64,000 nucleotides of DNA, taken from the NCBI RefSeq assembly GCF_000612545.2, contig NZ_CP097800.1, positions 4,278,501 through 4,342,500 of the forward strand, in the 5' to 3' direction. Both the position numbers and the translations under genes were made by a program. Below, piece by piece: positions 25,240 through 62,581 of this stretch (within the stretch, counting starts at the first letter, position 1; the number at the start of each line of letters is the position of its first letter). The DNA comes from Streptomyces sp. PCS3-D2. Its GTDB lineage: Bacteria > Actinomycetota > Actinomycetes > Streptomycetales > Streptomycetaceae. Under the pieces are notes generated by a model, which did not search any database, was not told the DNA's origin, and saw only the letters and a list, made by a program, of their open reading frames with translations.

Positions 25240-25254
25240 CTGACGGTTAGTCAG
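25240..25254. promoter_or_regulatory. Operator A of the CTGACG-N3-CGTCAG family
   Basis: CTGACGGTTAGTCAG lies 24 bases upstream of the acyl-CoA synthetase start codon. It differs from the perfect palindrome at one base. Confidence 0.75.
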
Positions 25255-25317
25255 ATCAAGCGCAGAGCGTAGAGCGCGTGCGCTTGTCGGTCCAGGGGTG
25301 GCGGGGCTAGCTTGTTT

Positions 25318-25332
25318 CTGACGATCCATCAG
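25318..25332. promoter_or_regulatory. Operator B of the CTGACG-N3-CGTCAG family
   Basis: CTGACGATCCATCAG lies 57 bases before the amidohydrolase ATG in the same divergent region as operator A. One position of the right arm differs. Confidence 0.65.
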
Positions 25333-25389
25333 ATCGCTTGGACCGGCCCCCTCGGACCGGCCTCGGACCGGCACCGGATTGGGGAGCCC

Positions 25390-26634
25390 ATGGAACTTCC
25401 TCGGATCATCAGCGTCGACGACCACGTGATCGAGCCCGCGCACCTGTTCGACGTCTGGCTGCCCGCGAAGTACCGTGACCGCGGCCCCAAGGCGCTCACG
25501 GCCGGCATCGGCGAGCTCCAGTACACGGGCGGCAAGTACGTGATCTCCATGGACCCGGACGGCCCGCCGACCGACTGGTGGATCTACGAGGACCTGAAGT
25601 TCCCGTACAAGCGCAACATCGCCGCCGTCGGCTTCGACCGCGACGACATGACCCTGGAGGGGATCACCCGTGAGGAGATGCGCCAGGGGTGCTGGGACCC
25701 CAAGGCGCGCCTCGCCGACATGGACCTCAACCACGTCGAGGCCTCCCTGTGCTTCCCGACCTTCCCGCGCTTCTGCGGGCAGACCTTCGCCGAGGCGCAC
25801 GACAAGGAGGTGGCCCTCGCCTGCGTGCGCGCCTACAACGACTGGATGGTCGAGGAGTGGTGCGGCGACAGCGGCGGCCGGCTGATCCCGCTGTGCATCG
25901 TCCCGCTGTGGGACATCGACCTGGCGGTGGCCGAGGTCCGGCGCAACGCCGCCCGCGGGGTGCGCGCCGTGACCTTCTCCGAGATACCGACCTACCTGGG
26001 GCTTCCGTCGATCCACTCCGGCTACTGGGACCCCTTCTTCGCGGCCTGCCAGGAGACCGGGACGGTGGTCAACATGCACATCGGGTCCAGTTCGCAGATG
26101 CCCGCCGCCTCCCCGGACGCGCCGCCCGCCGTCCAGGCCTCGCTCAGCTTCAACAACGCGATGGCCTCGATGATGGACTTCCTCTTCAGCGGCGTGCTGG
26201 TGACGTTCCCGAGGCTCAAGCTGGCCTACAGCGAGGGGCAGATGGGTTGGATCCCGTACGCCCTGGAACGTGCGGACGACGTGTGGCGGGAGCACCGGGC
26301 GTGGGGCGGGGTGCGCGACCTGATTCCCGAGCCGCCGTCGACGTACTACTACCGGCAGATGTTCTGCTGCTTCTTCCGCGACAAGCACGGCATCGCCTCG
26401 CTCGACGTCGTCGGCCGCGACAACGCGACCTTCGAGACCGACTACCCGCACGTCGACTCGACCTTCCCGCACACCAAGGAGGTCGCCCTGGACCACGTGC
26501 GGGGGCTGGACGAGGAGACCGTCTACAAGCTGATGCGCGGCAACGCCATCCGCATGCTCGACCTCGACCTGGACCGCGGCGCGGACCGCAACCTCGACCG
26601 CAGTCGGAACACGGGCGGGAACACGGTCCGCTGA
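25390..26634 (+). CDS. Amidohydrolase (PF04909 family), copy 1
   Basis: The 414-residue TIM-barrel metal-dependent hydrolase starts MELPRIISVDDHVIEP, where the DDH segment corresponds to the N-terminal metal site. Other family features are LADMDLNHVEASLCFPTFPRFCGQTF, AYNDWMVEEWC, VVNMHIGSSSQMP (barrel His), and FETDYPHVDSTFPH (distal His/Asp). Relatives decarboxylate or hydrolyse cyclic intermediates in catabolic clusters. It is clearly paralogous to the protein at 62603-63835. The stop and the next start share one base (TGATG), so it is coupled to the acyl-CoA dehydrogenase. Operator B precedes it. Confidence 0.87.
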   Translation: MELPRIISVDDHVIEPAHLFDVWLPAKYRDRGPKALTAGIGELQYTGGKYVISMDPDGPPTDWWIYEDLKFPYKRNIAAVGFDRDDMTLEGITREEMRQGCWDPKARLADMDLNHVEASLCFPTFPRFCGQTFAEAHDKEVALACVRAYNDWMVEEWCGDSGGRLIPLCIVPLWDIDLAVAEVRRNAARGVRAVTFSEIPTYLGLPSIHSGYWDPFFAACQETGTVVNMHIGSSSQMPAASPDAPPAVQASLSFNNAMASMMDFLFSGVLVTFPRLKLAYSEGQMGWIPYALERADDVWREHRAWGGVRDLIPEPPSTYYYRQMFCCFFRDKHGIASLDVVGRDNATFETDYPHVDSTFPHTKEVALDHVRGLDEETVYKLMRGNAIRMLDLDLDRGADRNLDRSRNTGGNTVR

Positions 26635-30672: not shown

Positions 30673-31599
30673 TCAGAGGACGGCCACCGGGGCCACCGGG
30701 GTGCCGGTGCCGCCGACGAACGGCTCCGCCATGGCGGACAGGAGGAAGGCGTACCGGCCTTCTTCCGCACAGGCCGTGGACAACCCCTCCAGGTTCCAGT
30801 TCTGGCCCTGGTGCATGCCCATCTCCACCAGGTCCAGGGCGTGGACCGGCAGCCACAGATTCTCGATCTCCGGCGGGAAGATCTCGAAGGTCAGGGTGTC
30901 GTTCGCGACGGCCGCCACGTCCCGCGCGTGGAACCACTCGGGTGTGCGGACGGACAGCCCGGGGGACGGGAAGCCGTAGCCGTGCTTGTCGCCCGCCAGG
31001 TAGACCTGGATCTGGCCGGTGCGCACCAGGACGATGTCGCCGGGGCGGACGGCGACCCGGCCGAACTCCTCGGCCTCCGCCAGGTCCGCCGGGGTCACCG
31101 CGTGGCCGCCCGGCAGCCGGTCGAGGCCCTTGGCGCGGGCCACGTCCAGGAGCACCCCGCGCGAGACGATGGGGGCGGCCTTGTCGATGCCGCTGAACTC
31201 GGCCCGCCCGTGCGCCGTGATGGTGCCCGCCAGGCGGCCGTTGTAGATCCGGCCCGAGTGCGAGACGTGGGTGAGGGCGTCCCAGTGGGTGCCCGCCTGG
31301 AGGCCCATGCTGACGGCGTCGTCGCTGCACGCCACCGTGCCCGGTCCGAAGAGCTCCTGGTTGATCTGCACCATGGTGTGCAGCGGGTTGATCCGACCGG
31401 GGATCATGCCGACCTGGACCCCGTCCTCCTTCAGGGGCAGTGCGAGGGGGATGCGGAGGCCGCTGCGGATCTCCGCGGCCGCGCGCCGCACGACGTCGCC
31501 GGTGATCAGGTTCAGGGTGCCGGTCTCGTCGTCGGCGCCCCAGCGACCCCAGTTGTTGACGCGCTTGGCGATGTCGTGGAACTCGGCGGGCAGGGTCAT
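30673..31599 (-). CDS. Cyclase family protein (PF04199, kynurenine formamidase-like)
   Basis: The 308-residue metal-dependent hydrolase fold carries the family motif GLQAGTHWDALTHVSHSGRIYNG (about residues 95-117), whose His/Asp residues bind the metal. Other family segments are RGVLLDVARAKG and GDIVLVRTGQ. Members hydrolyse cyclic or amide bonds in aromatic and alicyclic degradation. The ATG at 31599 has AAGGAG 12 bases upstream, a rather long spacing. It faces the SDR operon, and operator C lies between the two starts, so both are likely co-regulated. Confidence 0.85.
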   Translation of the reverse strand: MTLPAEFHDIAKRVNNWGRWGADDETGTLNLITGDVVRRAAAEIRSGLRIPLALPLKEDGVQVGMIPGRINPLHTMVQINQELFGPGTVACSDDAVSMGLQAGTHWDALTHVSHSGRIYNGRLAGTITAHGRAEFSGIDKAAPIVSRGVLLDVARAKGLDRLPGGHAVTPADLAEAEEFGRVAVRPGDIVLVRTGQIQVYLAGDKHGYGFPSPGLSVRTPEWFHARDVAAVANDTLTFEIFPPEIENLWLPVHALDLVEMGMHQGQNWNLEGLSTACAEEGRYAFLLSAMAEPFVGGTGTPVAPVAVL

Positions 31600-31670
31600 G
31601 GGCTTCGACAGCTCCTTGGGTGAATGCGGCAACGAGGTCTTGTGCACGTGCATCCGGCTACCCATAGAAT

Positions 31671-31685
31671 CTAACGGTCCGTCAG
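31671..31685. promoter_or_regulatory. Operator C of the CTGACG-N3-CGTCAG family
   Basis: CTAACGGTCCGTCAG lies between the divergent cyclase and SDR genes, 22 bases before the SDR GTG. One base of the left arm differs. Confidence 0.75.
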
Positions 31686-31707: not shown

Positions 31708-32628
31708 GTGGGGAAGTTCTTGGCAGGCAGGGTCGTCGCCGTCACCGGCGCCGGCCGGGGCATCGGGCGGGCCGTGGCACTCGCCGCGGCCGCCGAGGGC
31801 GCCAAGGTCGTCGTCAACGACTACGGCGTCGGCATCGAGGGCGTAGAGCCCACCAGCGAGATAGCCGACGGCGTCGTCAAGGAGATCCTCGCCGCCGGCG
31901 GGGAGGCCGTCGCGGTCGCCGACGACATCTCGACCATGGCGGGCGGCCAGCGCGTCGTCGACACCGCTCTCGCGCGGTACGGGCGCCTCGACGGGGTCGC
32001 CTGCGTCGCCGGCATCCTGCGCGAACGGATGCTGTTCAACATGAGCGAGGAGGAGTGGGACCCGGTTCTCGCCACCCACCTCAAGGGCACCTTCACCGTC
32101 TTCCGCGCCGCCTCCGCCGTCATGCGCCGCCAGGGATCGGGCACCCTGATCGGCTTCACCAGCGGCAACCACCAGGGCTCGGTCGCCCAGGCCAACTACA
32201 GCGCCGCCAAGGGCGGGATCATCTCCCTCGTCCGCTCCGCGGCCCTGGGCCTGGCCAAGTACGGGGTCACCGCCAACGCGGTCGCGCCCGTCGCCCGCAC
32301 CCGCATGTCCGCGAACGTCCCCATGGAGCTCAAGGAGATCGGCGAGCCCGAGGACGTCGCGGCGCTGGTCACCTACCTGCTCTCCGACAAGGCCGTCGCC
32401 ATCGGCGGTGAGCGGATCACCGGGCAGGTCTACACGATCGCCGGCCCGAAGATCGCCGTCTGGGCGCAGCCGCGCGAGCTGCGCGCCGGATACGCCGAAG
32501 GCTCCTGGACCCCGGAGAAGATCGCTGACTTCCTGCCCGGGACGGTCGGCACGGACCCCATGCCGATGCTGGCGCAGCTCGACGCCATGGCCAAAGCGGC
32601 ATCCGCCAAGGACCGTCCCAACGCCTGA
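31708..32628 (+). CDS. Short-chain dehydrogenase/reductase
   Basis: The 306-residue SDR has the NAD(P)-binding motif TGAGRGIG (residues about 12-19), an Asn-containing NAG-like segment (CVAGILRERML), the catalytic Ser in FTSGNHQGS and YSAAKGG with Tyr and Lys. The sequence EGVEPTSEIADGVVKEILAAGG resembles the N-terminal dehydrogenase unit of bacterial multifunctional enzymes, so 3-hydroxyacyl-CoA dehydrogenase activity is likely. It starts an operon with a dehydrogenase and an alcohol dehydrogenase, and operator C is directly upstream. Confidence 0.88.
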   Translation: MGKFLAGRVVAVTGAGRGIGRAVALAAAAEGAKVVVNDYGVGIEGVEPTSEIADGVVKEILAAGGEAVAVADDISTMAGGQRVVDTALARYGRLDGVACVAGILRERMLFNMSEEEWDPVLATHLKGTFTVFRAASAVMRRQGSGTLIGFTSGNHQGSVAQANYSAAKGGIISLVRSAALGLAKYGVTANAVAPVARTRMSANVPMELKEIGEPEDVAALVTYLLSDKAVAIGGERITGQVYTIAGPKIAVWAQPRELRAGYAEGSWTPEKIADFLPGTVGTDPMPMLAQLDAMAKAASAKDRPNA

Positions 32629-32641: not shown

Positions 32642-33841
32642 ATGGATTTCGGCTTCGGGACCGAGGACGAGGAACTGCGCGGACGGGCCCGCGCGTGGCT
32701 GGCCGAGCACCTCGTGGGCCCGTACGCGCACGCCGTCGGCCTCGGCGGGCCGGGCAGCGAGCACGAGGGCGTGGAGGCCCGGCGCGCCTGGGAGCGGGAG
32801 CTCGGCCGCGGCGGCTGGATCGGGCAGGGTTGGGAGGCTCCGGAAGGGACGTACGGGCAGCGGCGGCTCTCACTGACCGGGCAGGTGGTGTGGGCCGAGG
32901 AGTACGCGGCGCTGCGCGCCCCCGGCCGGGTCGGCCACATCGGCGAGAACCTCCTCGCGCCCACCCTGATCGCCCACGGCAGCCGGGAGCAGCAGCGCCG
33001 CTTCCTGCCCGCCATCGCGCGCGGCGAGGAGCTGTGGTGCCAGGGCTACAGCGAGCCGGGCGCAGGCTCCGACCTGGCGGGCATCCGCACCGCGGCCGTC
33101 CGCGACCCGGCCGACGGGCTCTACCGCGTCACCGGGCAGAAGATCTGGACCTCCCTGGCCCGGGAGGCCGACTGGTGCTTCGTCCTCGCCCGCACCGAGC
33201 CCGGGTCGAAGCGTCACCGCGGGCTGTCCTTCCTGCTCGTACGGATGGACCAGCCCGGCCGCGTGGAGGTACGGCCGATCCGGCAGATGTCGGGGACCGC
33301 GGAGTTCAACGAGGTGTTCTTCGACGGGGCGGTGGCTGCGGAGACCGTCGGCGGGGAGGGCGACGGCTGGACCGTGGCCATGAGCCTGCTCGCCCTGGAA
33401 CGGGGGGTGTCCACGCTGGTTCAGCAGATCGGCTTCGCGGCCGAGCTGGAACGGGTCCTCGGCCGGTACGCCGCCTCGGGCACGGCCGACCCGGTGGTCC
33501 GCGACCGCCTCGTACGGCAGTGGGCCGAGCTGCGCACCATGCGCTGGAACGCGCTGCGGACCCTGGGCGCGCAGGGCGGTCCGGGCGCGCCCAGCGTGGC
33601 CAAGCTGCTGTGGGGCGGCTGGCACCGGCGGCTCGGGGAGCTGGCGGTGGAGGTCCGGGGGGCGGCGGCCGCGGCCGGGCCGGGCAGCTGGGAGCCGGAG
33701 CTCCCGTACGAGCTCGGACTCGACGAGGAGCAGCGCCTGTTCCTGTTCACCCGCGCCGACACGATCTACGGCGGTTCGGACGAGATCCAGCGCAACATCA
33801 TCGCCGAGCGCGTGCTCGGCCTGCCGAAGGAGTCCAGGTGA
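32642..33841 (+). CDS. Acyl-CoA dehydrogenase
   Basis: The 399-residue enzyme has LWCQGYSEPGAGSDLAGIRTAA for FAD and substrate contacts and a C-terminal DTIYGGSDEIQRNIIAERVLGLPKE. Gly stands where medium-chain enzymes have the catalytic Glu before GT/GS. It lies 13 bases after the SDR gene and overlaps the alcohol dehydrogenase start (GTGA), so the three are one operon. No small partner is adjacent; the single dehydrogenase at 45123 could be a partner (inference). Confidence 0.88.
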   Translation: MDFGFGTEDEELRGRARAWLAEHLVGPYAHAVGLGGPGSEHEGVEARRAWERELGRGGWIGQGWEAPEGTYGQRRLSLTGQVVWAEEYAALRAPGRVGHIGENLLAPTLIAHGSREQQRRFLPAIARGEELWCQGYSEPGAGSDLAGIRTAAVRDPADGLYRVTGQKIWTSLAREADWCFVLARTEPGSKRHRGLSFLLVRMDQPGRVEVRPIRQMSGTAEFNEVFFDGAVAAETVGGEGDGWTVAMSLLALERGVSTLVQQIGFAAELERVLGRYAASGTADPVVRDRLVRQWAELRTMRWNALRTLGAQGGPGAPSVAKLLWGGWHRRLGELAVEVRGAAAAAGPGSWEPELPYELGLDEEQRLFLFTRADTIYGGSDEIQRNIIAERVLGLPKESR

Positions 33842-34905
33842 GAGGCGTCGTGTTCGACGGCAAGCAGGCCCGGGTGGTCGACGACCTGGAGGTCCGGGAT
33901 CCGGGGCCGGGGGAGGTGCTCGTCGCGATCGGCGCGGCCGGGCTGTGCCACAGCGACCTGTCGGTGATGGACGGGACGATCCCGTTCCCGCCGCCGGTGG
34001 TGCTCGGGCACGAGGGCGCCGGGGTCGTGGAGGCCGTCGGCGAGGGCGTCACGCACGTGGCCCCCGGCGACCACGTGTCGCTGTCCACACTGGCCAACTG
34101 CGGGGCGTGCGCGGACTGCGACCGGGGCCGGCCGACGATGTGCCGCAAGGCGATCGGGGCGCCCGGGCAGCCGTTCTCGCGGGGCGGCACGCCCCTCTTC
34201 CAGTTCGCCTCGAACTCCGCCTTCGCGGAGAGGACGATCGTCAGGGCCGTGCAGGCGGTGAAGATTCCGGCCGACATCCCGCTGACGTCGGCGGCGCTGA
34301 TCGGCTGCGGGGTCCTGACCGGGGTGGGCGCGGTCCTCAACCGGGCCCGCGTCGACCACGGCGAGACGGTGGTCGTGATCGGCACCGGCGGCATCGGGCT
34401 CAACGTGCTCCAGGGCGCCCGGATCGCCGGCGCCACGACGATCGTGGCGGTCGACGCCAATCCGGCGAAGGAGGCGGTGGCGCGAAAGTTCGGGGCCACG
34501 CACTTCGTCGACGCGTCCGCGGTCGCCGACTCCTCGGCCGCGGTCCGCGAGATCCTGCCGACCGGCGCGGACCACGCCTTCGAATGCGTGGGCAACGTCA
34601 CGCTGATCCGCCAGGCCGTGGACCTCCTCGACCGGCACGGTCAGGCGGTGCTGCTCGGCGTCCCCGGCTTCACGGAGGAGGCGTCCTTCCGCGTCTCGTC
34701 CATGTACCTCGACAAGACGATCATGGGCTGCCGGTACGGCTCCTCGCGCCCGCAGCGCGACATCGCCCTGTACGCGGAGCTCTACCGGCAGGGCCGGCTG
34801 CTGCTGGACGAGCTGGTGACCGAGGTCTACCCGGTCGAGGACTTCGCGAAGGCCGTCGACGACGCCCACCACGGGCGGGTGGCCCGCGGGGTGCTCACCT
34901 TCTGA
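33838..34905 (+). CDS. Zinc-dependent alcohol dehydrogenase (MDR family)
   Basis: The 355-residue medium-chain dehydrogenase has the catalytic zinc site (GLCHSDLSVMDG, GHEGAGVVEAVG, with Cys/His/Glu) and the four-Cys structural zinc loop (CGACADCDRGRPTMC, about residues 87-101). The Rossmann motif is GTGGIGLN. It resembles class III/NDMA-dependent enzymes that oxidise bulky primary alcohols with a tightly bound cofactor. The GTG overlaps the stop of the acyl-CoA dehydrogenase. It could oxidise an alcohol or aldehyde intermediate of the pathway. A 17-bp hairpin follows. Confidence 0.9.
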   Translation: MRGVVFDGKQARVVDDLEVRDPGPGEVLVAIGAAGLCHSDLSVMDGTIPFPPPVVLGHEGAGVVEAVGEGVTHVAPGDHVSLSTLANCGACADCDRGRPTMCRKAIGAPGQPFSRGGTPLFQFASNSAFAERTIVRAVQAVKIPADIPLTSAALIGCGVLTGVGAVLNRARVDHGETVVVIGTGGIGLNVLQGARIAGATTIVAVDANPAKEAVARKFGATHFVDASAVADSSAAVREILPTGADHAFECVGNVTLIRQAVDLLDRHGQAVLLGVPGFTEEASFRVSSMYLDKTIMGCRYGSSRPQRDIALYAELYRQGRLLLDELVTEVYPVEDFAKAVDDAHHGRVARGVLTF

Positions 34906-35005: not shown

Positions 35006-35692
35006 TCACTCGGCGAGGCGGCCGAAGCGACCCTTGTGGAAGAGGAGCGGATCGCCCTCCCCTGCCGCACCCATGGCCACGACCCGGCCCACGACGATGA
35101 GGTGGTCGCCGCCCGTGTGGACGGCGTGGATCCGGCAGTCGATCCATGCGGGCACGGCGGCGAGCCGCGGGGACCCGGTGACGGGGGCCGGGGTGTGGGC
35201 CACCCCGGCGAACTTGTCCGCGCCGCTGACGGCGAAGGCCCGACACAGCTCGCTCTGCTCGGCTCCCAGGATGTTGACGCAGAACACCCCGGCGCGGGCG
35301 ATCCGCGGCCAGGTGGTCGAGGTGCGGGCCACCATGAAGGTGACCAGGGGAGGGTCCAGGGACAGCGAGGCGAAGGACTGGCAGGCGAACCCGGCCGGCC
35401 CGTCCGTTTCCTGGTCCGCGTCCCCGTCCCGGCCCCCGTCCCCGTCCCGGTCCCGGTCCGCCTCCCCACCGGGCGGCGCGGTGATGACCGTGACACCGCT
35501 CGCGAAGTTCCCCAGGACGGTCCGGAACTCGGCCGGACCGACCGGCGCGCGCTCGTCGTCGCCGACGGCCCGCAGATCGGGACGCGGGAGGGCGTCGACG
35601 GACTCGGGGTCCCGCTGTGCCGAGGCGGCGGTGGGGGAGCCGGCTGACCTGAGGTATCGGACGACGGTGGCCGCCATCCCTGCGTGTCCCAT
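35006..35692 (-). CDS. Flavin reductase-domain protein (HsaB/HpaC-like) with an Asp-rich insert
   Basis: The 228-residue protein has the FMN-binding split-barrel domain of flavin reductases: FRTVLGNFASGVTVITA, GFACQSFASLSLDPPLVTFMVARTSTTWPRI, and DHLIVVGRVVAM. Such proteins supply reduced flavin to two-component monooxygenases. The oxygenase partner is not adjacent. After residue 67 an insert of alternating Asp/Arg/Gly (about 20 residues, from GTCCCG-type repeats) interrupts the fold at a surface loop. The ATG at 35692 follows GGAGGTGTG. Operator D is 18 bases upstream. Confidence 0.82.
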   Translation of the reverse strand: MGHAGMAATVVRYLRSAGSPTAASAQRDPESVDALPRPDLRAVGDDERAPVGPAEFRTVLGNFASGVTVITAPPGGEADRDRDGDGGRDGDADQETDGPAGFACQSFASLSLDPPLVTFMVARTSTTWPRIARAGVFCVNILGAEQSELCRAFAVSGADKFAGVAHTPAPVTGSPRLAAVPAWIDCRIHAVHTGGDHLIVVGRVVAMGAAGEGDPLLFHKGRFGRLAE

Positions 35693-35709: not shown

Positions 35710-35724
35710 CTGACGGTTCGTCAG
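35710..35724. promoter_or_regulatory. Operator D of the CTGACG-N3-CGTCAG family
   Basis: CTGACGGTTCGTCAG is a perfect palindrome around a 3-base centre, 18 bases upstream of the flavin reductase ATG. The VOC gene to the right starts 171 bases away. Confidence 0.8.
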
Positions 35725-35894: not shown

Positions 35895-36689
35895 ATGCTC
35901 GGCACCGACTTCCGCACCGGATCACCCAACTGGCTCGACCTCGGGAGCCCCGACACCGGAGTGGCCGCCGCGTTCTACGGCGCCGTCTTCGGCTGGGAGT
36001 TCGTCTCCGCCGGACCTGAGGCCGGCGGGTACGGCTTCTTCCGGCAGGACGGCAAGACCGTCGCCGCCCTCGGACCGCTCACCGAGGAAGGCGCCCGCTC
36101 GGCCTGGATGCACCACTTCATGACCCCCGACATCGAGGCCACCACCCAGGCCGTACGGGCGGGCGGCGGGACGGTCCGGACGGAGCCCATGGACGTCATG
36201 GGAGAGGGCCGGCTGGCGCAGTTCACCGACCCGCAGGGCGCCGAGTTCGCCTGTTGGCAGCCGGGAAACACCGCTGGCTTCGAGGTCGCCTCCGCCGAGA
36301 ACACGCTGGTCTGGGCGGAGCTCCACGTACCCGACCCGGTCGCCGACATCGCCTTCTACGCCGGGCTGTTCGGATGGCGCCACGCCGAGATGCAGGTTCC
36401 CGGCATGACGTACCGGGTCCTGAGCACCGCCGACGGTGACCTGGCGGACGCCTCCTTCGGCGGGGTCGCACCGCTCGGCGAGGGCGCGGGCGGCGGTGAC
36501 GGCGGCGACGCCCGCTGGGTGCCCTACTTCCATGTGAGCGACGTCGACGCCACCGCCGCCCGGGCCGAGGAGAGCGGCGGGACCGTCCTGATGCCGGCCG
36601 CCGACGTACCGGACGTCGGGCGGATCGGCTGGCTCGCGGACCCCTTCGGCGCGGTGTTCGCGCTGTTGCGGCCCGAACCGCGCAGCTAG
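35895..36689 (+). CDS. VOC-fold (glyoxalase/bleomycin resistance) protein
   Basis: The 264-residue protein has two tandem VOC domains (about residues 1-125 and 135-260), each with the WLDLGSPDTGVAAAFYGAVFGW-type start and a QFTDPQGAEFACWQPG or WLADPFGAVFALL end. Members bind metals and catalyse isomerase, dioxygenase or resistance functions; some act only as binding proteins. The ATG follows GGGAGGGCCC. Substrate unknown. It resembles the VOC protein before afsK (47874-48668) in size and layout. Confidence 0.85.
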   Translation: MLGTDFRTGSPNWLDLGSPDTGVAAAFYGAVFGWEFVSAGPEAGGYGFFRQDGKTVAALGPLTEEGARSAWMHHFMTPDIEATTQAVRAGGGTVRTEPMDVMGEGRLAQFTDPQGAEFACWQPGNTAGFEVASAENTLVWAELHVPDPVADIAFYAGLFGWRHAEMQVPGMTYRVLSTADGDLADASFGGVAPLGEGAGGGDGGDARWVPYFHVSDVDATAARAEESGGTVLMPAADVPDVGRIGWLADPFGAVFALLRPEPRS

Positions 36690-39924: not shown

Positions 39925-39939
39925 ACTGACGTGTAGTCA
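39925..39939. promoter_or_regulatory. Operator E1 of the CTGACG-N3-CGTCAG family
   Basis: CTGACGTGTAGTCAG lies 45 bases upstream of the synthetase ATG. It is the proximal member of a tandem pair. Confidence 0.75.
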
Positions 39940-39948
39940 GATTACTGA

Positions 39949-39963
39949 ACTGACGTGCCGTCA
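39949..39963. promoter_or_regulatory. Operator E2 of the CTGACG-N3-CGTCAG family
   Basis: CTGACGTGCCGTCAG is a perfect-arm copy. Its start is 24 bases from that of E1, so the two could be occupied together with a slightly over two-turn spacing. Confidence 0.8.
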
Positions 39964-40070
39964 GGAACAGTGCTGCGCGGGAAAGCTGATGGAGGTGGTG
40001 TGGTGAACGGTCGCAGATCGCCGCGGAGCGGGTCCAGAGCGCACTTCCGGCCGAGATCACCCGCCCGGGC

Positions 40071-41551: not shown

Positions 41552-41566
41552 CTGACGTACCGTCAG
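41552..41566. promoter_or_regulatory. Operator F of the CTGACG-N3-CGTCAG family
   Basis: CTGACGTACCGTCAG has perfect 6-base arms. It lies between the divergent monooxygenase and DoxX genes, 30 bases before the DoxX ATG. Confidence 0.8.
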
Positions 41567-41595
41567 ATCCAAGGGTGAGAGGGGTGGGGCTGCCG

Positions 41596-44970: not shown

Positions 44971-44985
44971 CTGACGTATCGTCAG
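44971..44985. promoter_or_regulatory. Operator G of the CTGACG-N3-CGTCAG family
   Basis: CTGACGTATCGTCAG has perfect arms. It lies 16 bases upstream of the thiolase-like gene ATG on the minus strand. Confidence 0.8.
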
Positions 44986-45087: not shown

Positions 45088-45102
45088 ATGACGGCCCGTC
45101 AG
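45088..45102. promoter_or_regulatory. Operator H of the CTGACG-N3-CGTCAG family
   Basis: ATGACGGCCCGTCAG lies 21 bases before the dehydrogenase ATG at 45123. The inner 5-base arms are perfect; only the outermost base differs. Confidence 0.75.
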
Positions 45103-46929: not shown

Positions 46930-47577
46930 TTACCTGGTCGGCTTCTTGCCCGTGATGCCGAGGTGGACGAGCAGGGCCAGGTTCGGCTTGAGTTCGGCCT
47001 GCTTGACGCCCCAGGTCTGGAAGCCCTTCTGGTGCGAGGCGACCGCGGCCAGCATCGCGACCAGCGAACCGGCCATCGCGGCGGGGCTGACGTCCTTGTC
47101 GACCTTGCCCTTGGCCTGGAGCTCCTTCACCGATTCCGTGAGGGAGTTGGTGACCGAGTTCAGGATCTTCATGCGGATCTTGTAGAACCGCTTGTCGCCC
47201 TCGGCCGCGCCGAGGTCGACCACACGCAGGATCGCGTCGTTGCGGCGCCAGAACTCCAGGAAGCCGTCGACGAGTTCCTCGGCGGCTGCCCACCCTGACT
47301 TGCCGACCCAGGTCCGGCCCTCGACGAGCGACGTCAACTGCGCGCCCTCGGCGGCCATGTGCTCGGCGATCTCCAGGACGGCGCCCTCGACGTCCGGGAA
47401 GTACTGGTAGAAGGTCGCGGGGGAGGTACCGGCCTTGCGGGCGACGTCGATCACCTTGACGTCGCGGTACGGCGAGGAGCTGAGCATCTCGCTGAGGCAG
47501 TCGAGCAGTTTCTGCCGCGTCGCCTGGCCGCGCCGGCCGGCGACACGCCCGTCGACGGTGCGTACTTGTCCTGTCAT
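46930..47577 (-). CDS. TetR-family regulator, candidate regulator of the CTGACG palindrome regulon
   Basis: The 215-residue protein has an N-terminal HTH (about residues 20-65: ATRQKLLDCLSEMLSSSPYRDVKVIDVARKAGTSPATFYQYFPDVEGAVLEIAEHM) and a helical ligand-binding domain. It is the only TetR gene inside the catabolic region. A degenerate copy of the regulon palindrome overlaps its own start codon (47571-47585), which suggests autorepression. The operator form, a 15-bp palindrome with TGACG half-sites, is what a TetR dimer would bind. By position it neighbours the VOC and afsK genes. Control of the regulon is inferred; ligand unknown (likely an acyl-CoA). Confidence 0.85.
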   Translation of the reverse strand: MTGQVRTVDGRVAGRRGQATRQKLLDCLSEMLSSSPYRDVKVIDVARKAGTSPATFYQYFPDVEGAVLEIAEHMAAEGAQLTSLVEGRTWVGKSGWAAAEELVDGFLEFWRRNDAILRVVDLGAAEGDKRFYKIRMKILNSVTNSLTESVKELQAKGKVDKDVSPAAMAGSLVAMLAAVASHQKGFQTWGVKQAELKPNLALLVHLGITGKKPTR

Positions 47578-47585
47578 GCCGTCAG
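47571..47585. promoter_or_regulatory. Degenerate operator K over the tetR start codon
   Basis: CTGTCATGCCGTCAG matches the family in the right arm and in CTG of the left arm, with two mismatches (positions 4 and 6). It covers the tetR ATG (47575-47577 on the minus strand). Confidence 0.45.
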
Positions 47586-47781
47586 CTTACCGAGGGGGGA
47601 TCGGCGCGCTATTCGGCCGCCTGCAAATGGGGTTACGGGCTCCCTGGCCTGGGCGGTGCGCGGTCCCGGGCGGCCGCGCAGGCGAATTCCGGCCGGATCC
47701 GCCCCGTGGGCGGCCCGTCGTCGCCGCCCGGTCGCTGTCCGGGCGTGTCGCCCCGTTCCGCGGGATTTCCCCCGAATAGTC

Positions 47782-47873: not shown

Positions 47874-48668
47874 ATGGCCGCATTCGTGGAAGGCGCACCC
47901 TGCTGGGTGGACGCCTCGCTTCCGGACGTCGAGGCGGGCAAGCGGTTCTACGGTGAGCTCTTCGGGTGGACCTTCGCGGACAGCGCGGGGGCCGAATACG
48001 GCCACTACACGCAGGCCTACAGCCAGGGCCGCAACGTTGCGGCCCTCGCCCCCAAGCCCGACGGCCGGATGCCGACGGTCTGGGGCGTCTATCTCTACAC
48101 CGCCGACGCCTACGCCTGCGCCCAGCGCATCCGCGCCGCCGGCGGCCAGATGGTGATGGACCCGATGCCGGTCGGCCCGTACGGCACGGCCGCGATGGCC
48201 GCCGACCCCGGCGGGGCCGTCTTCGGACTGTGGCAGCCCGGCACCCACCACGGCTTCGAGGCCCAGCAGGAGCCCTTCACGTACTGCTGGAGCGAGGTCT
48301 ACACACGGGCGCGCGACGCCGTGGACGTCTTCTACGCGAAGGTCTTCGGCTACGTGCCGCAGGACCAGGACGACGCCGGAGTCGAGTACCGCATCTGGTC
48401 GCCGCCGGGCAAGGCGCCCGGCACCGACACCGCCGTCCTCGGGCGCAGCCTGATCACGGACGCCTTCCCGGAGATCATGCCGGCGCACTTCCTCGTCTAC
48501 TTCGCCGTCCCGGACTGCGACCGGTCCGTGGCCACGGTGCAGCGGCTCGGCGGCCGGGTCACCGCGGACCCGTTCGACACCCCCTACGGCCGGATCGCGG
48601 TCGTCGCGGACAATCAGGGAGCGGTCTTCGGGCTCCTGTCGCAGCCCCGCGCCGAGGCGGACGCGTAG
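47874..48668 (+). CDS. kbpA: VOC-fold protein directly before afsK (KbpA candidate)
   Basis: The 264-residue protein has two VOC domains (about residues 5-120 and 140-262; [23 protein letters not shown] start, [13 protein letters not shown] and NQGAVFGLL ends). In S. coelicolor the ORF just upstream of afsK encodes KbpA, about 252 residues, which binds AfsK and inhibits its autophosphorylation. Position and size match here; I cannot confirm sequence identity from memory. The ATG follows GGAAGGAACCAGG. An inverted DnaA-box-like pair lies in its promoter. Confidence 0.68.
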
Positions 48669-54247: not shown

Positions 54248-55399
54248 TCAGCTCCTCAGCAGGATCGCGGACGTCGGGACGCCTTCGCCCGCCGTCACCA
54301 GGCAGGTCGCGGCGTCCGGCACCTGGGCGGTGGAGGTGCCGCGCAGCTGCTTGACGCCCTCGTTGATCAGGTTGAAGCCGTGTACGTACGCCTCGGACAG
54401 TCCGCCGCCGCCGGTGTTGAGGGGAAGCCGGCCGCCGAGCTCCAAGGCGCCGCCCTCGGTGAAGGCGGCGCCCTCGCCGCGCCCGCAGAAGCCGTAGCCC
54501 TCCAGGGAGAGCGGGATGAGCGGGGTGAAGGCGTCGTAGATCTGGGCGACGTCCACGTCCTGGGGGCCGAAGTCGGCCTGCTTCCACAGGTGGCGGGCGG
54601 CGGTCCAGGCGGGCCCGGACAGGGGGTCGTCGTTCCAGTAGTTGACCATGCCGTGGTGCTGGGCGGGCAGGCCCTGGGCGGCGGAGTGGACGTAGACCGG
54701 CCGGTGGCGGCAGTCGCGGGCCCGTTCGGCGGAGACGATCACGCAGGCCAGTGCGCCGTCGGTCTCCAGGCAGTTGTCGAAGAGGCAGAGCGGGTCGCTG
54801 ATCATGCGGGAGGTCATGTACATCTCGCGGGTCAGCGGGCGTTCGTACATCATCGCGGCGGGGTTCTCGTTGGCCCGGTTGCGGCAGGCCATGGCCACGT
54901 TGAAGAGGTGGTCGCGGGTGGCGCCGTACTCGTGCATGTAGCGGCGGGCCAGCATGCCGATCTCGTCGGCGGGGCGGAGCAGGCCGAAGGGCCGGGTCCA
55001 CTGGCCGGGGGTGGGCAGCTGGACGGCGGTGTTCTTCCAGGGGCGGGGGCCGGAGCCGCGTTTGCGGGAGCGCCAGGCGACCCCGACGGTGGCCTGGCCG
55101 GTGGCCACGGCGGCGGCGAGGTGGCCGACCGTGGCACAGGAACCGCCGCCCCCGTAGCCGATCTTGGAGAAGAAGGTGACGTCGCCGGCGCCGATGGCCT
55201 TGGCGACCTCGACCTCGTCGGTCTCCTCCATGGTGTAGGAGGAGAAGGCGTCCACCTCGCCGGGGTCGATGCCGGCGTCGGCGAGGGCGGCCAGGATCGC
55301 CCGGCAGGCCAGTTCCTTCTCGGACTGCGGCAGTCGTCTGGCGAAGGCGGTCTGGCCGATGCCGACTATCGCCGTAGCGTCCTTGAGCGTTGCCGCCAT
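54248..55399 (-). CDS. Thiolase-like / lipid-transfer protein (retro-aldolase candidate)
   Basis: The 383-residue protein has TAIVGIGQTAFARRL, GDVTFFSKIGYGGGGSCATVGHLAAAVATGQATVGVAW, DVDVAQIYDAFTPLIPLSLEGYGFC and LPLNTGGGGLSEAYVHGFN. It belongs to the SCP-x/Ltp2-like group. The ATG at 55399 lies five bases after GGAGG. Two codons earlier a GTG (55405) is an alternative. It leads an operon with DUF35 and enoyl-CoA hydratase genes. Operator I is in the divergent region before it. Confidence 0.88.
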   Translation of the reverse strand: MAATLKDATAIVGIGQTAFARRLPQSEKELACRAILAALADAGIDPGEVDAFSSYTMEETDEVEVAKAIGAGDVTFFSKIGYGGGGSCATVGHLAAAVATGQATVGVAWRSRKRGSGPRPWKNTAVQLPTPGQWTRPFGLLRPADEIGMLARRYMHEYGATRDHLFNVAMACRNRANENPAAMMYERPLTREMYMTSRMISDPLCLFDNCLETDGALACVIVSAERARDCRHRPVYVHSAAQGLPAQHHGMVNYWNDDPLSGPAWTAARHLWKQADFGPQDVDVAQIYDAFTPLIPLSLEGYGFCGRGEGAAFTEGGALELGGRLPLNTGGGGLSEAYVHGFNLINEGVKQLRGTSTAQVPDAATCLVTAGEGVPTSAILLRS

Positions 55400-55452: not shown

Positions 55453-55467
55453 CTGACGGTTAGTCAG
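55453..55467. promoter_or_regulatory. Operator I of the CTGACG-N3-CGTCAG family
   Basis: CTGACGGTTAGTCAG lies 29 bases before the CoA ligase ATG and 54 bases before the lipid-transfer gene start. It is identical to operator A. Confidence 0.78.
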
Positions 55468-55495: not shown

Positions 55496-57160
55496 ATGGG
55501 CGACGACGGGCTGCGCGGGCATGTACGCGAGGACGCGCCCGCGGGCGTGGGCGAGGACCCGCGCGGAGACCTGCGCTGGGGCACCATCGCGGGGCTCGTC
55601 CGGTCGGCATCGGCACGGTACGGCGACCTCGAAGCCGTCGTCGACGGGCGCGTCCGGATCGGATACGCGCAGCTCGGGGAGCGCGTCGAGCGCGCCGCGG
55701 CGGCCTGTGTGGCCGCCGGGGTGGAGCCGGGCGACCGGGTGGCCGTGTGGGCGCCCAACACCCTCGACTGGATCGTCTCCGCGCTCGGCGCGGTCTCGGC
55801 GGGTGCCGTCCTGGTCCCCCTCAACACCCGCTACAAGGGCACGGAAGCCGCCTACGTCCTGCGGCGCAGCCGGGCCCGGCTGCTCTTCGTCACCGGCACC
55901 TTCCTCGGCACCTCCTACGTCGCCTCGCTGCGTCGGGCCGCCGCCGAGGGGCCCGGCCGGGGCCCCCTGCCCGGACTGCCGCACCTGGAACAGGTCGTCG
56001 TCCTCGCCGAGGACGCCCCCGACTCCTTCCGCACCTGGAAGGACTTCCTCGCGGGCGGGGACCGGATCACGTCGGAGGCGGTGCGCGAGCGCGCCGACGC
56101 CATCAGCCCCGACGCCCCCTCCGACATCATCTTCACCTCGGGCACCACCGGCAGCCCCAAGGGCGCGGTCATCACCCACGCCCAGTCCCTGCGCTGCTAC
56201 GACGTGTGGAGCGAGCTCGCGGGACTCCGCGAGGGCGACCGCTACCTGATCGTGAACCCCTTCTTCCACACCTTCGGCTACAAGGCCGGGATCATCGCCT
56301 GCCTGATGCGCGGGGCGACGATGGTCCCGCAGCCCGTCTTCAACGCGGACACCGTCCTCGCCAACGTCGCCGCGGAGCGGATCTCCGTACTGCCCGGGCC
56401 GCCAACCCTGCACCAGTCCCTCCTGGACCACCCGCAGCGCGCCCACCACGACCTGTCCGCCCTGCGGCTCGTCGTCACCGGCGCGGCCGTGGTCCCGCTC
56501 CGGCTCGTCGAGCGCCTGCGCGGCGAGCTGCGCATCCCCACCGTCCTCACCGCCTACGGGCTCTCCGAGGCGGGAGGCATCGTCACGATGTGCCGTCGGG
56601 GCGACCCGGCCGAGGTCGTCTCCGCCACCTCCGGCCGGCCCATCCCGGACACGGAGGTCGCGGTCCTGGACGGCGACGGGCGGCCCCTGCCGGCCGGACG
56701 ACCCGGCGAGATCGCGGTCCGCGGCCACCACGTCATGCAGGGCTACTTCGAGGACCCCGACGGGACGGCGGCGGCGATCACCCCGGACGGCTGGCTGCGC
56801 ACCGGGGACGTGGGCGTCCTCGACGGAGACGGGAACCTGCGCATCACCGACCGGATCAAGGACATGTTCATCGTCGGGGGCTTCAACGCCTACCCGGCCG
56901 AGATAGAGCAACTCCTCGGCCTGCACCCGGACATCGCGGACGTGGCGGTCGTCGGGGTGCCCGATCCGCGCCTGGGTGAGGTCGGCAAGGCCTACGCCGT
57001 CCGGCGCCCCGGCTCCACACTCACCGCCGACGACCTGATCGCCTGGTCCCGGCGGGAGATGGCCAACTACAAGGTCCCGCGCGCGGTGGAATTCGTCACC
57101 GAACTCCCGCGCAACGCCGGTGGCAAGGTCCTCAAACGCGAACTCCGCGCCCGCCCGTGA
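55496..57160 (+). CDS. FadD3-like acyl-CoA ligase
   Basis: The 554-residue AMP-forming ligase has the P-loop TSGTTGSPKGAV (about residue 215), YGLSEAGG, GWLRTGDVGVLDGDGNLRITDRIKDMFIVGGFN and the A10 lysine in RNAGGKVLKRELR. It resembles FadD3, which activates a steroid C/D-ring acid (HIP) in mycobacteria and rhodococci; that resemblance is my reading of the sequence, not a search. Operator I is 29 bases upstream. It is divergent from the lipid-transfer operon. Confidence 0.88.
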   Translation: MGDDGLRGHVREDAPAGVGEDPRGDLRWGTIAGLVRSASARYGDLEAVVDGRVRIGYAQLGERVERAAAACVAAGVEPGDRVAVWAPNTLDWIVSALGAVSAGAVLVPLNTRYKGTEAAYVLRRSRARLLFVTGTFLGTSYVASLRRAAAEGPGRGPLPGLPHLEQVVVLAEDAPDSFRTWKDFLAGGDRITSEAVRERADAISPDAPSDIIFTSGTTGSPKGAVITHAQSLRCYDVWSELAGLREGDRYLIVNPFFHTFGYKAGIIACLMRGATMVPQPVFNADTVLANVAAERISVLPGPPTLHQSLLDHPQRAHHDLSALRLVVTGAAVVPLRLVERLRGELRIPTVLTAYGLSEAGGIVTMCRRGDPAEVVSATSGRPIPDTEVAVLDGDGRPLPAGRPGEIAVRGHHVMQGYFEDPDGTAAAITPDGWLRTGDVGVLDGDGNLRITDRIKDMFIVGGFNAYPAEIEQLLGLHPDIADVAVVGVPDPRLGEVGKAYAVRRPGSTLTADDLIAWSRREMANYKVPRAVEFVTELPRNAGGKVLKRELRARP

Positions 57161-59349: not shown

Positions 59350-62300
59350 TCAGGCGGCAATCTCTGTGGCCAGCAAGGTCTGTACCTCGGCCAGTTCGGC
59401 CGAACCGAGCTGCTGGAAGACCGCCTCCGCGTCCCGCCAGCACGCCCGCGCCCGGTCCGTCTGCCCCAGCCGCCGCAGCGCCTTGCCCAGCACCGTCAGC
59501 ACCGTCGCGCGCCGCCACTCCCCGCCGATGCCGCGCAGTGCGATGGCCTGCTCGGCGTGCGCCGCGGCCAGGGTGGGCCGGCGCGCCGCGAGATGGGCGA
59601 CGGCGAGCCGGAAGTGGGTGACCCCTTCCCACAGGGGCTGGCGGTTGTCGTGGAAGAGCGCCAGCGCCTCGGTGAGCTGCGCGAGGGCCTCGCCGAGCCG
59701 GCCCGCCTCGGTGAGTGCGATGCCGAGCGCGTAGCGGCCGTTGGCCAGCCGCAGGGACAGGCCCATCCGGTCGTAGATGGCGATGCCCTGCTGCGCGAGG
59801 TCTATGGCGCTGGTGAGGCGGCCCAGTTCCACGTGGATGCGGGAGAGGTTGCACAGGGCGCTCGCCTCGCCGACGTTGTTGCCGTCGGCGCGGAAGTTCT
59901 CGATGGCCTCCAGCAGGTACCGCTCGCCGTCCGCGTTCCGCCCCTCGTAGAGCGCGATGATCCCGCGGTCGTTGGGCGCCCAGCAGCTGGGCAGCGGGTC
60001 TCCGGCCTCGCGGGCCAGCACCGTGGCCTGGCGGGCTTCGTCGTCGGCCTCGGCGAAGCGGCCGGCGACCAGGTGCACGTTGGTCAGGGTGGTGCGGGCG
60101 CGGCCCTCGGCGTAGGGGTCCTTGGCGGCCTGGGCGGCGTCGCGCAGGGCGGCCGCGGCCGACTCGTACTGCTTGGAGTTGGCCCCCGATTCGGCGAGGT
60201 CCTTGGCCGCCCACAGCAGGTCGACGGCCCGGCGCAGCACCGGTGAGTCGCCGCCCCGTACGGAGGCCTGGCGTACGCACGCCAGCAGCGGACCTGCCTC
60301 GGTGTACAGCCAGTCCAGGGCGGCGCGCGGCTCGGCGAAGACCAGTCCGGGGTAGTGGGTGTCGGACAGGTGCGCGGGCAGCCGGTCGCCGGGGCGTTCC
60401 AGGGCGTACACCCCGGAGGCGGTGGCCAGGTAGAAGTCCAGGAGGCGGTCCAGGGCGGCCTCGCGTTCGCTCGGGGGCTGCTCGTCCCGTTCGGCGCAGG
60501 CCCGCGCGTAGAGGCGGACGAGGTCGTGGAAGCGGTAGCGGCCGGGCGCGGCGGATTCGAGGAGGGAGCAGTCGACCAAGGCCTCCAGGAGGTCCTCGGT
60601 GTCGTACTCGGGCAGGTCGAGGACGGCGGCGGCCGCGGACAGCGAGATGTCCGGGCCGTCGGCCAGGCCGAGGAGGCGGAAGGCGCGCTGCTGGGCCGGT
60701 TCCAGCTGGCCGTAGCCGAGCTCGAAGGTGGCCTTGACGGCGAGGTCGCCGGCCTGGAGTTCGTCGAGGCGGCGGCGTTCGTCGCCGAGCTTGGCGGCCA
60801 GGACGGAGACGGTCCAGGTGCGGCGGGCCGCCAGCCGGGAGGCGGCGATGCGGATGGCCAGCGGCAGGAAGCCGCAGGCGCCGACGACGTCGAGGGCGGC
60901 CTGGCGTTCGGCGCGTACGCCTTCCTCGCCGACGATGCGGGTGAAGAGCTGGAGCGCCTCCTCCGGACTCATCACGTCGAGGTCGACGAGATGCGCCCCG
61001 GCGAGGCCGGCCATGCGGACCCGGCTGGTGACGAGGGCGGCGCAGCCGGCGGTGCCGGGTAGCAGCGGGCGGACCTGGGCGGCGTCGCGGGCGTTGTCGA
61101 GGAGGACCAGGACGCGGCGGCCGTCGAGGGTGGAGCGGTAGAGGGCGGCCCGTTCGGCCGGGGAGTCGGGGATGGCGGTGTCGGGGGTGCCGAGCGCGCG
61201 CAGGAAGGAGCCGAGCACGGCCTCCGGCTCGGCGGGGCGGGTGTCGGTGCCCTGGAGGTCGACGTAGAGCTGGCCGTCGGGGAAGTGCGGGCGGGCGGCG
61301 TGGGCGACGTGGACGGCGAGGGTGGTCTTGCCGACGCCGCCGATGCCGGCGAGCGCGGAGACGGCCATGACCTGGTCCTGGGCGCCCCCGGAGAGGATCG
61401 TGCCGAGCTCGTTCACGAAGCTGGATCGCCCGGTGAAGTCGGGTACGGTCGCGGGCAATTGGGCGGGCCTCACCTGGGTGGCGGTGGCTGCCGGGGCGGG
61501 GTCCTCCGCGCGGGCCAGGTCGGCGTCGGCGTTCAGGATCCGCTGCTGGAGCGCGGCCAGTTCGGGACGCGGGTCGACGCCGAGCTCGTCGGCGAGGAGC
61601 CGGCGGGTGTCGGCGTAGACGGCGAGGGCCTCGGCCTGTCGGCCGCTGCGGTAGAGGGCGAGCATGAGCAGCTCGCGCAGCCGTTCGCGCAGCGGGTGGG
61701 CGGCGGTGAGGGCGGTGAGCTCGGAGACGGCCTCGGCGTGGTGGCCGACCTCCAGGTCCAGGTCGAGGCGGGCTTCCAGCAGTTGGAGGCGCCATTCGGC
61801 GAGCCGGGTGCGCTCGGTCTCGGCGTGCGGGCCGGGGACCCCGGCGAGGGGTTCGCCCTCCCACAGGTCGAGGGCGCGGGCCAGGAGCGTGCGGGCGAGG
61901 GAGCGGTCCCCGGCGGCGCGGGCGCCCTCGGCGTCGGCGGCGAGGCTTCGGGCAATGCCGAGGTCGAGGGTGGCTGCGGAGCGCAGCCGGATGGCGTAGC
62001 CGCCGGACTCGGTGACGAGCAGGCCCGGGGCGACGACCTTGCGCAGGCGGGAGGCGTAGGTGCGGATGGTGGCGAGGGCCTGCTGCGGCGGGTCCTCGCC
62101 CCAGATGGCGTCGATCAGTTCGGGTGCGGTGGCGGTGCGGCCGTCGCGCAGCAGGAGTGCGGCGAGCAGGGCGCGTTGCTGGGGGGTGCCGGAGGGCAGG
62201 GCCTCGCCGCCCCGCCAGGCGCGTACGGGCCCGAGGACGGCGAACCGCGACTCGCCCGCCGTGCCGCCTGCGACGGTCTCGGCGGTCTCGGCGGTCGGGG

Positions 62301-62472
62301 CAGGCCCGGTGGTGCCGCTAGCGGTGGTGGCGTGCCTCTCGCCGGACGCGGCGGCGACCGTCGGCGGTACGGGACCGGCGGGGCGGGCGGCGGTGCCGGC
62401 TTCGGACGCGGCGGCAGCCGCACGGGCCTCGGGGTGTTTGCGCGGGTGAGGGATGGCCGGTACGCCGTCCAT
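59350..62472 (-). CDS. afsR: SARP-family global regulator AfsR
   Basis: The 1040-residue protein has an Ala/Pro-rich N-terminal extension (about 1-75), an OmpR-type DNA-binding domain (about 76-165: FAVLGPVRAWRGGEALPSGTPQQRALLAALLL, TYASRLRKV) and a bacterial transcriptional-activation domain (about 170-320: LRERLRELLMLALYRSGRQAEALAVYADTRRLLADELGVDP). An NB-ARC ATPase (Walker A GIGGVGKTT near residue 380) and C-terminal TPR repeats follow. AfsK-type kinases phosphorylate it, and AfsR then activates afsS. It is somewhat longer than the 993-residue S. coelicolor protein, chiefly at the N-terminus. The ATG follows AGGGGGACAG. Operator J lies in its promoter region. Confidence 0.94.
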   Translation of the reverse strand: MDGVPAIPHPRKHPEARAAAAASEAGTAARPAGPVPPTVAAASGERHATTASGTTGPAPTAETAETVAGGTAGESRFAVLGPVRAWRGGEALPSGTPQQRALLAALLLRDGRTATAPELIDAIWGEDPPQQALATIRTYASRLRKVVAPGLLVTESGGYAIRLRSAATLDLGIARSLAADAEGARAAGDRSLARTLLARALDLWEGEPLAGVPGPHAETERTRLAEWRLQLLEARLDLDLEVGHHAEAVSELTALTAAHPLRERLRELLMLALYRSGRQAEALAVYADTRRLLADELGVDPRPELAALQQRILNADADLARAEDPAPAATATQVRPAQLPATVPDFTGRSSFVNELGTILSGGAQDQVMAVSALAGIGGVGKTTLAVHVAHAARPHFPDGQLYVDLQGTDTRPAEPEAVLGSFLRALGTPDTAIPDSPAERAALYRSTLDGRRVLVLLDNARDAAQVRPLLPGTAGCAALVTSRVRMAGLAGAHLVDLDVMSPEEALQLFTRIVGEEGVRAERQAALDVVGACGFLPLAIRIAASRLAARRTWTVSVLAAKLGDERRRLDELQAGDLAVKATFELGYGQLEPAQQRAFRLLGLADGPDISLSAAAAVLDLPEYDTEDLLEALVDCSLLESAAPGRYRFHDLVRLYARACAERDEQPPSEREAALDRLLDFYLATASGVYALERPGDRLPAHLSDTHYPGLVFAEPRAALDWLYTEAGPLLACVRQASVRGGDSPVLRRAVDLLWAAKDLAESGANSKQYESAAAALRDAAQAAKDPYAEGRARTTLTNVHLVAGRFAEADDEARQATVLAREAGDPLPSCWAPNDRGIIALYEGRNADGERYLLEAIENFRADGNNVGEASALCNLSRIHVELGRLTSAIDLAQQGIAIYDRMGLSLRLANGRYALGIALTEAGRLGEALAQLTEALALFHDNRQPLWEGVTHFRLAVAHLAARRPTLAAAHAEQAIALRGIGGEWRRATVLTVLGKALRRLGQTDRARACWRDAEAVFQQLGSAELAEVQTLLATEIAA

Positions 62473-62566
62473 CTGTCGTCCCCCTGCCTTCCGTCGGTGT
62501 AAGGGTCAGTCTGCCCTGTCTGCGCGCACACGTCAGCCCGTCCATGACCGATCCCGGACCAACTAG

Positions 62567-62581
62567 CTGACGGTTCGTCAG
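62567..62581. promoter_or_regulatory. Operator J of the CTGACG-N3-CGTCAG family, shared by afsR and amidohydrolase
   Basis: CTGACGGTTCGTCAG is perfect and identical to operator D. It lies 21 bases before the amidohydrolase ATG and 94 bases before the afsR ATG in the 130-bp divergent region. Confidence 0.8.

Follow-up and report, generated by a model that had tools for sequence, protein, structure and literature searches.

A 15-bp palindrome, CTGACG-N3-CGTCAG, recurs close upstream of catabolic genes of Streptomyces sp. PCS3-D2, and we propose that it is probably the operator of a TetR-family repressor of the SCO4421 type, encoded in the same stretch at 46930-47577. The window (the whole stretch of 64,000 nucleotides that was analysed) covers positions 4278501-4342500 of the 7.63-Mb genome, and positions below are window-relative unless stated. 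Sequence comparison indicates that the tight copies of the palindrome are not due to chance, lie at promoters, and are found again upstream of the same catabolic genes throughout Streptomyces and, in part, upstream of orthologues in a distant family. The regulon is genome-wide and genus-wide, and is larger than was stated in the original prediction, which had been drawn from the letters of the window.

The palindrome within the window

Mismatches were counted over the two six-base arms, and an extended 17-mer form of the palindrome, CTGACGNNNCGTCAGAT, was used in scans alongside the 15-bp motif. Gene starts were taken from our own GC-frame gene caller, without use of annotation; 87% of the window was called coding. 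All eleven copies listed in the original prediction are present, nine of them at the positions first given; the other two, placed at 39925 and 39949, each begin one base later, at 39926 and 39950. Five copies have perfect arms, as had been said (35710, 39950, 41552, 44971 and 62567); the other six, described as differing by one or two bases, have exactly one mismatch each and none has two. Every site is intergenic, and the site centres are 25-77 bp away from the closest start, which bears out the placement close upstream of start codons. Since the regions at 25.2, 39.9 and 45.0 kb have two sites each, the count of eleven promoters was an overstatement, and the eleven sites occupy only eight intergenic regions. 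The core genes named as devoid of the motif (29098 ATPase, afsK, cyclophilin, DUF389 and methyltransferase) indeed have no site at ≤1 mismatch; two-mismatch copies were seen at 29594 and across the TetR start codon (last line below). The sites, the genes beside them and the proposed binder are:

25240..25254, site, one mismatch; before the coenzyme A (CoA) ligase gene 23663-25216 (-) and the amidohydrolase-fold gene 25390-26634 (+)
25318..25332, site, one mismatch; second in the same intergenic region as 25240..25254
31671..31685, site, one mismatch; before genes for a short-chain dehydrogenase/reductase (SDR) 31708-32628, an acyl-CoA dehydrogenase (ACAD) 32642-33841 and an alcohol-dehydrogenase-like protein 33838-34905 (+); gene 30673-31653 (-) lies on the other side
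35710..35724, site, perfect arms; 40 bp before the flavin-reductase-like gene 35006-35677 (-), and also 178 bp before the KbpA-like gene at 35895 (+)
39926..39940, site, one mismatch; before the ADP-forming CoA-ligase-like gene 37646-39880 (-)
39950..39964, site, perfect arms; same promoter as 39926..39940
41552..41566, site, perfect arms; 25 bp before the DoxX-like gene 41584-42048 (+), and also 187 bp before the flavin monooxygenase-like gene 40221-41372 (-)
44971..44985, site, perfect arms; before the thiolase-like gene 43762-44904 (-)
45088..45102, site, one mismatch; before the IpdE2-like acyl-CoA dehydrogenase gene 45123-46376 (+)
55453..55467, site, one mismatch; between the Ltp2-like gene 54248-55399 (-) and the FadD3-family ligase gene 55496-57160 (+)
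62567..62581, site, perfect arms; 29 bp before the amidohydrolase-fold gene 62603-63835 (+)
46930..47577 (-), TetR-family protein (TetR_C_38) of the SCO4421 type, proposed binder
47571..47585, degenerate copy with two mismatches that spans the TetR start codon; it may be a self-operator

GC-rich codon patterns might by themselves make such palindromes common. Consistent with that explanation, the window had no excess at ≤3 mismatches (64 found, 72.6 expected), so that the signal depends upon the tight motif; and a good part of the 78 sites found in the PCS3-D2 genome at ≤1 mismatch (15 of them perfect) must be background, because the reversed-pattern control (27 matches) is too lenient. The same control applied to G065, a Streptomyces genome without the cluster, gave 36/30 matches against 3/6, yet a 400-kb sample of that genome had no excess at the 3-base spacer. 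We relied for this reason upon spacer controls, shuffles and gene recurrence. At ≤1 arm mismatch the window had 11 matches against 0.43 expected, and the maximum in 100 dinucleotide shuffles was 3. Within 104 kb (window plus loci L016 and L017) the 3-base spacer gave 8 perfect and 8 one-mismatch copies, and each other spacer from 0 to 10 gave 0-1 copies. These controls, together with the same-gene recurrence described next, refute chance for the tight motif, in line with the earlier dismissal of a chance origin, and we give that explanation next to no credence.

Recurrence across Streptomyces

The 80 best named Streptomyces loci around the TetR gene, where TetR is 89-99% identical, contained 308 matches at ≤1 mismatch, of which 296 were intergenic; the reversed control gave 19. 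A gene was scored as having a site when an orthologue of at least 50% identity carried one from 60 bp inside to 300 bp upstream of its start. By this measure a site precedes the thiolase in 68/68 orthologues, the acyl-CoA dehydrogenase in 70/71, the Ltp protein in 45/45, the FadD3-type ligase in 33/33, the ADP-forming CoA ligase in 14/15, the DoxX-like gene in 27/28, the flavin monooxygenase in 16/25, the flavin reductase in 4/5 and DUF35 in 12/44; the AMP ligase, ACAD1, the amidohydrolase and afsR (divergent from the amidohydrolase) were 1/1 each. No site precedes orthologues of kbpA (0/61), afsK (0/62), cyclophilin (0/15), the PdxH-like (0/57) and deazaflavin-type (0/73) genes, two crotonases (0/9 and 0/55), the ChsH2-like gene (0/52) or a 68-residue open reading frame (0/3). 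A scan of related Streptomyces had been suggested as a check, and recurrence before the same genes (thiolase against kbpA, for example) supports a catabolic regulon. The exact 17-mer was found in 152 of 199 Streptomyces genomes, with control counts of 0. Twelve loci were taken from the 47 genomes that do not have it, and two of these (L122 and L127) carry the cluster with non-identical sites.

The TetR protein as candidate binder

The protein encoded at 46930-47577 has a TetR_N helix-turn-helix DNA-binding domain (PF00440, 26.7 bits, cut-off 24) and a PF19352 domain (246 bits). Co-occurrence of protein and motif was assessed class-wide over 296 genomes, 268 of them outside Streptomyces, where a TetR homologue was accepted at E≤1e-25 and a genome with at least two exact 17-mer matches was counted as motif-positive; the tally was made by hand. 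Outside Streptomyces, 16 of 23 TetR-positive genomes were motif-positive, versus 2 of 245 TetR-negative genomes (G339, 68% complete, and G341, 93%); a further 11 of the 245 have a single match. The recognition-helix residues GTS.ATFYQYF did not vary among 29 aligned sequences, whose identity to the window TetR ranges over 42-99%, and in 15 distant homologues residues 6-62 were 60-72% identical to the window protein and the rest 34-47%. The co-occurrence and the conserved helix back the choice of this TetR as candidate, which had been named previously as the protein to assay.

A TetR dimer would bind the palindrome by the start and block transcription of the genes for CoA ligases, acyl-CoA dehydrogenases, hydratases, Ltp-type aldolases, thiolases and several oxygenases; by analogy with KstR2, release would come from a pathway intermediate, probably the CoA thioester of an alicyclic or polycyclic acid. 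The repressor may also limit its own expression via the degenerate start-codon site. The sequence about the TetR start (47548-47590), GGTAAGCTGACG.CATGACAGGACA, is near-invariant over about 25 bases in 95/95 Streptomyces sequences, and the invariance covers non-coding and synonymous positions, including three A-ending codons in a high-GC gene. This may represent a weak self-operator, or it may be the site of a developmental regulator.

The palindromes could also be RNA leader hairpins (attenuators) or a dispersed repeat and not protein operators, as six-base arms about a three-base loop could, from their sequence, pair. Sites in divergent promoters serve both sides, however (55453; 44971 and 45088), the flanks and spacer letters vary among sites, and occurrence of the motif tracks that of the TetR protein; we regard this explanation as very improbable.

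Sites beside TetR in other families

Families outside Streptomyces are labelled f13, f14 and f18, and G and L numbers label genomes and loci. At five f14 loci the TetR gene adjoins an SDR gene, opposite an enoyl-CoA hydratase gene followed by two or three more genes. A ≤1-mismatch site was found just upstream of the TetR gene at 4/5 loci and in the divergent promoter at 4/5. The members tested included a PRK07856-type SDR (L165), a PRK07938-type hydratase with a FabK-type protein (L163), and two CoA_trans proteins (L160). EchA20, IpdAB, IpdC (FabK-like) and IpdF are described in PMC5380842 as KstR2-controlled enzymes acting upon the last steroid rings, and we infer that the f14 TetR neighbours correspond to ipdF, echA20, two CoA-transferase subunits and ipdC. 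These ipd-like genes had no close counterpart among the fetched PCS3-D2 loci, the only part of that genome searched for them. The f14 sites also precede 41-65% homologues of the window and distal PCS3-D2 targets (SDR, aldehyde dehydrogenase, luciferase-like monooxygenase (LLM) proteins, ACAD3 and thiolase); a homologue of at least 45% identity in the window plus distal-target set was found for 9/33 site-linked f14 genes versus 6/96 unlinked ones (p 0.003). All six f18 TetR loci had ≤1-mismatch sites, one or two per locus, no more than about 440 bp upstream; the neighbours are alcohol and aldehyde dehydrogenase genes at five loci and an alcohol dehydrogenase gene with a thiolase gene at one.

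Weighing the assignment

Several points weigh against the proposed TetR assignment, which is drawn from sequence comparison. The Fisher p value for the class-wide co-occurrence (1.7e-18) is optimistic because the genomes are related, and this TetR is the single regulator family that was profiled. Seven TetR-positive genomes outside Streptomyces fall below two matches (one in G209; none in G219, G228, G252, G322, G369 and G421). Within Streptomyces TetR is present in 197/199 genomes and the exact 17-mer in 152, and presence or absence of TetR there does not discriminate motif carriers. Ten of the twelve loci from genomes without the exact 17-mer do not have most of the cluster genes, yet keep TetR at 84-89% identity, plus afsK; another duty or a hidden target of the protein is therefore needed. 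The converse was seen in G178, a Streptomyces assembly of 620 contigs with seven exact 17-mer matches and no TetR match at 1e-40. The TetR gene itself has a ≤1-mismatch site at 0/75 Streptomyces starts, and in f13 such a site lies close upstream of TetR in 1/4 loci (L164).

The persistence of TetR without the cluster, the G178 genome, and the confinement of the profile to one regulator family would also fit control of the same catabolic regulon by an unlinked regulator, the window TetR being a conserved neighbour. Such a regulator could be a different TetR or, given that T-N11-A matches the palindrome as well, a LysR-type protein. The class-wide co-occurrence and the conserved recognition helix argue against this, as do the sites beside the TetR gene in two families with other neighbourhoods, f14 and f18, and we consider an unlinked binder quite unlikely. 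Binding by the TetR encoded in the window is the reading that we favour.

Scatter of the palindrome in f13

In all five f13 genomes (G210, G279, G249, G232 and G264) the palindrome occurs 109-218 times with perfect arms, against 0-1 times for the control. A sample of G210 totalling 400 kb, drawn at even steps, had 6 perfect and 42 one-mismatch copies with the 3-base spacer, and 0-8 in all with the other spacers; 32 of the 48 sampled sites were inside genes and 16 were intergenic, with 84% of the DNA called coding. A TetR homologue, with its recognition helix conserved, was found in 5/5 f13 genomes, and since all five have both TetR and motif, co-occurrence within this family does not discriminate. 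The f13 TetR neighbourhood (DinB/mycothiol-transferase-like, FhuF-like, CbtA and methyltransferase genes) gave no functional hint. No f13-like scatter was seen in the 400 kb sampled from the cluster-less Streptomyces G065. The operator may thus either have started out as a chromosome-wide element or have turned into one. We raise, as a speculation that we hold to be unlikely, that one TetR lineage and its operator lead two lives: as catabolic promoter operator in Streptomyces and f14, and as the site of a chromosome-wide nucleoid-organising or nucleoid-occlusion-like factor in f13, the duty that keeps TetR near-universal in Streptomyces, and its expression in spore chains, being a possible remnant of the latter.

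Sites elsewhere in the PCS3-D2 genome

Fourteen of the 15 perfect sites in the genome are intergenic (five in the window and nine of the ten others); the exception, L011, falls within a gene. The surroundings of L002 are low in GC, and the caller predicts no genes there. At ≤1 mismatch, CTGACGNNNCGTCAGAT gave 25 distinct sites, 15 over 4.304-4.376 Mb (genome coordinates) and 10 elsewhere; 23 are intergenic, and L021 and L026 are inside genes. A regulon confined to the window, as first described, is thus too narrow, as the set spans 4.304-4.376 Mb plus distal loci. The catabolic cluster extends about 33 kb beyond the window. There, sites are found upstream of genes for an LLM-class oxidoreductase and an SDR, upstream of the gene for a second LLM protein (next come an amidohydrolase and an aldehyde dehydrogenase), in the gap that separates an SDR gene from a lipid-kinase-like gene, and upstream of a gene without assigned function.

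Among the ten distal sites three look catabolic from the predicted products. L020 precedes an operon for an acyl-CoA dehydrogenase, a ChsH2-like protein, a second acyl-CoA dehydrogenase, a MaoC-like protein and a thiolase/Ltp-like protein; at L023 an LLM monooxygenase gene is found, together with genes for an acyl-CoA-dehydrogenase protein of 710 residues and a thiolase-like one; and L024 has a ferredoxin-reductase-like protein. The others do not look catabolic: L019 (transporter-like), L025 (APH-like plus unassigned), L022 (unassigned), L018 (recombinase region) and the intragenic L021 and L026. The genome-wide scan therefore upholds a dispersed regulon with promoter placement, and does not uphold the claim that every neighbouring operon is catabolic, given the transporter-like, lipid-kinase-like, recombinase-region, unassigned and two intragenic cases. 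Five further loci, L027-L031, were chosen manually among the two-mismatch matches of the scan, so their catabolic content is no unbiased count; L029 (CoA ligase), L030 (P450, with a thiolase opposite) and L031 (LLM protein, with an SRP54-type gene opposite) fit the set, and L027 (NlpC/P60 gene) and L028 (no close gene) do not.

Positions 5500-12000 of L018 form a low-GC stretch (about 0.56-0.69), perhaps a mobile region. The palindrome at 7394 is perfect, and the copy at 11865, by a serine-recombinase gene, has one mismatch.

Enzymes of the regulon

The FadD3-family ligase scored above the NCBIfam NF005801 cut-off (794 vs 657 bits). The best structural-database match of the Ltp protein was 6ok1_A and that of the L020 hydratase was the ChsH2 chain 6ok1_B; the SDR at 31708 resembles (3R)-hydroxyacyl-CoA dehydrogenases. 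Both amidohydrolase-fold proteins of the window (25390-26634 and 62603-63835) were closest to DitZ (8uyr) and PtmU3 (6omp), and it is possible, from this resemblance, that they are dinuclear oxygenases rather than hydrolases; PtmU3 is placed among the amidohydrolase-related dinuclear oxygenases in PMC10811679. Markers of classical steroid catabolism are present, namely the Ltp2/ChsH2-type side-chain enzymes and the FadD3-family ligase. A search of the PCS3-D2 genome for KshA (3-ketosteroid 9-alpha-hydroxylase, PF19298) gave 0 matches, and 14 control genomes also had none over the cut-off, so that the sensitivity of this search is undemonstrated; with that qualification classical steroid-ring degradation was set aside. 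The predicted enzymes suggest breakdown, via CoA thioesters, of an alicyclic or polycyclic acid that would be terpenoid- or sterol-like.

Relation to known systems

The kind of system is already known, that is, a catabolic regulon under a TetR repressor. The KstR2 regulon of mycobacteria and rhodococci, as covered in the portions of PMC3068626 and PMC5380842 drawn upon, is alike in having a TetR repressor, a short palindrome near starts, and acyl-CoA and ring catabolism, and the f14 TetR is beside genes resembling ipdF, echA20, the two CoA-transferase subunits and ipdC. It differs in its operator, AnCAAGnnCTTGnT (PMC3068626) against CTGACG-N3-CGTCAG, and the original prediction likewise did not recognise the motif as that of KstR2; no KstR2-named chain was among 12 PDB matches of the window TetR, and the set described here is dispersed around the genome and includes oxygenases of the luciferase-like and amidohydrolase-fold types.

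SlmA is alike in its TetR fold, it was the best NCBIfam match of the window TetR (E 3.2e-8), and the many dispersed sites of the f13 genomes recall it. The window TetR scored 33.4 bits, under the SlmA equivalog cut-off of 120, and the Streptomyces sites are at promoters. The SlmA operator also differs from CTGACG-N3-CGTCAG.

SCO4421 of S. coelicolor is a TetR gene near afsK; it is reported to be expressed in spore chains, and no phenotype followed its deletion (PMC3878966). The window TetR is also near afsK, beside kbpA, and is very probably the SCO4421 orthologue, as judged by position. The available portion of PMC3878966 gives the spore-chain expression and the absence of a deletion phenotype, and no operator or targets.

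In the open-access literature searched (most subscription papers being outside this scope), also for the motif itself, no paper with this operator was found, nor one that makes the assignment to this TetR or describes the scatter in f13. A candidate operator and target list are provided for a TetR whose function in sporulation is reported as unclear in the part of PMC3878966 consulted, and, if true, the binding assignment gives this unexplained, near-universal Streptomyces protein a likely job. A catabolic gene set is outlined as well, with enzymes like those of the sterol side chain (Ltp2/ChsH2) and the amidohydrolase-fold oxygenases (PtmU3, DitZ), and it adjoins afsK and afsR, which have been studied for antibiotic control. 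The scatter in f13 prompts the question of a common ancestor for a metabolic repressor and a DNA-binding factor that acts chromosome-wide.

A 44% TetR homologue with an in-frame TGA was noted at G228:C74:75373-75993 (in L173), in a genome without the exact 17-mer. The window has two KbpA-like genes, 35895-36689 and 47907-48668; the one adjoining the flavin reductase gene was below the NCBIfam KbpA cut-off of 250 bits (131 bits), and the one adjoining afsK was above it (274 bits).

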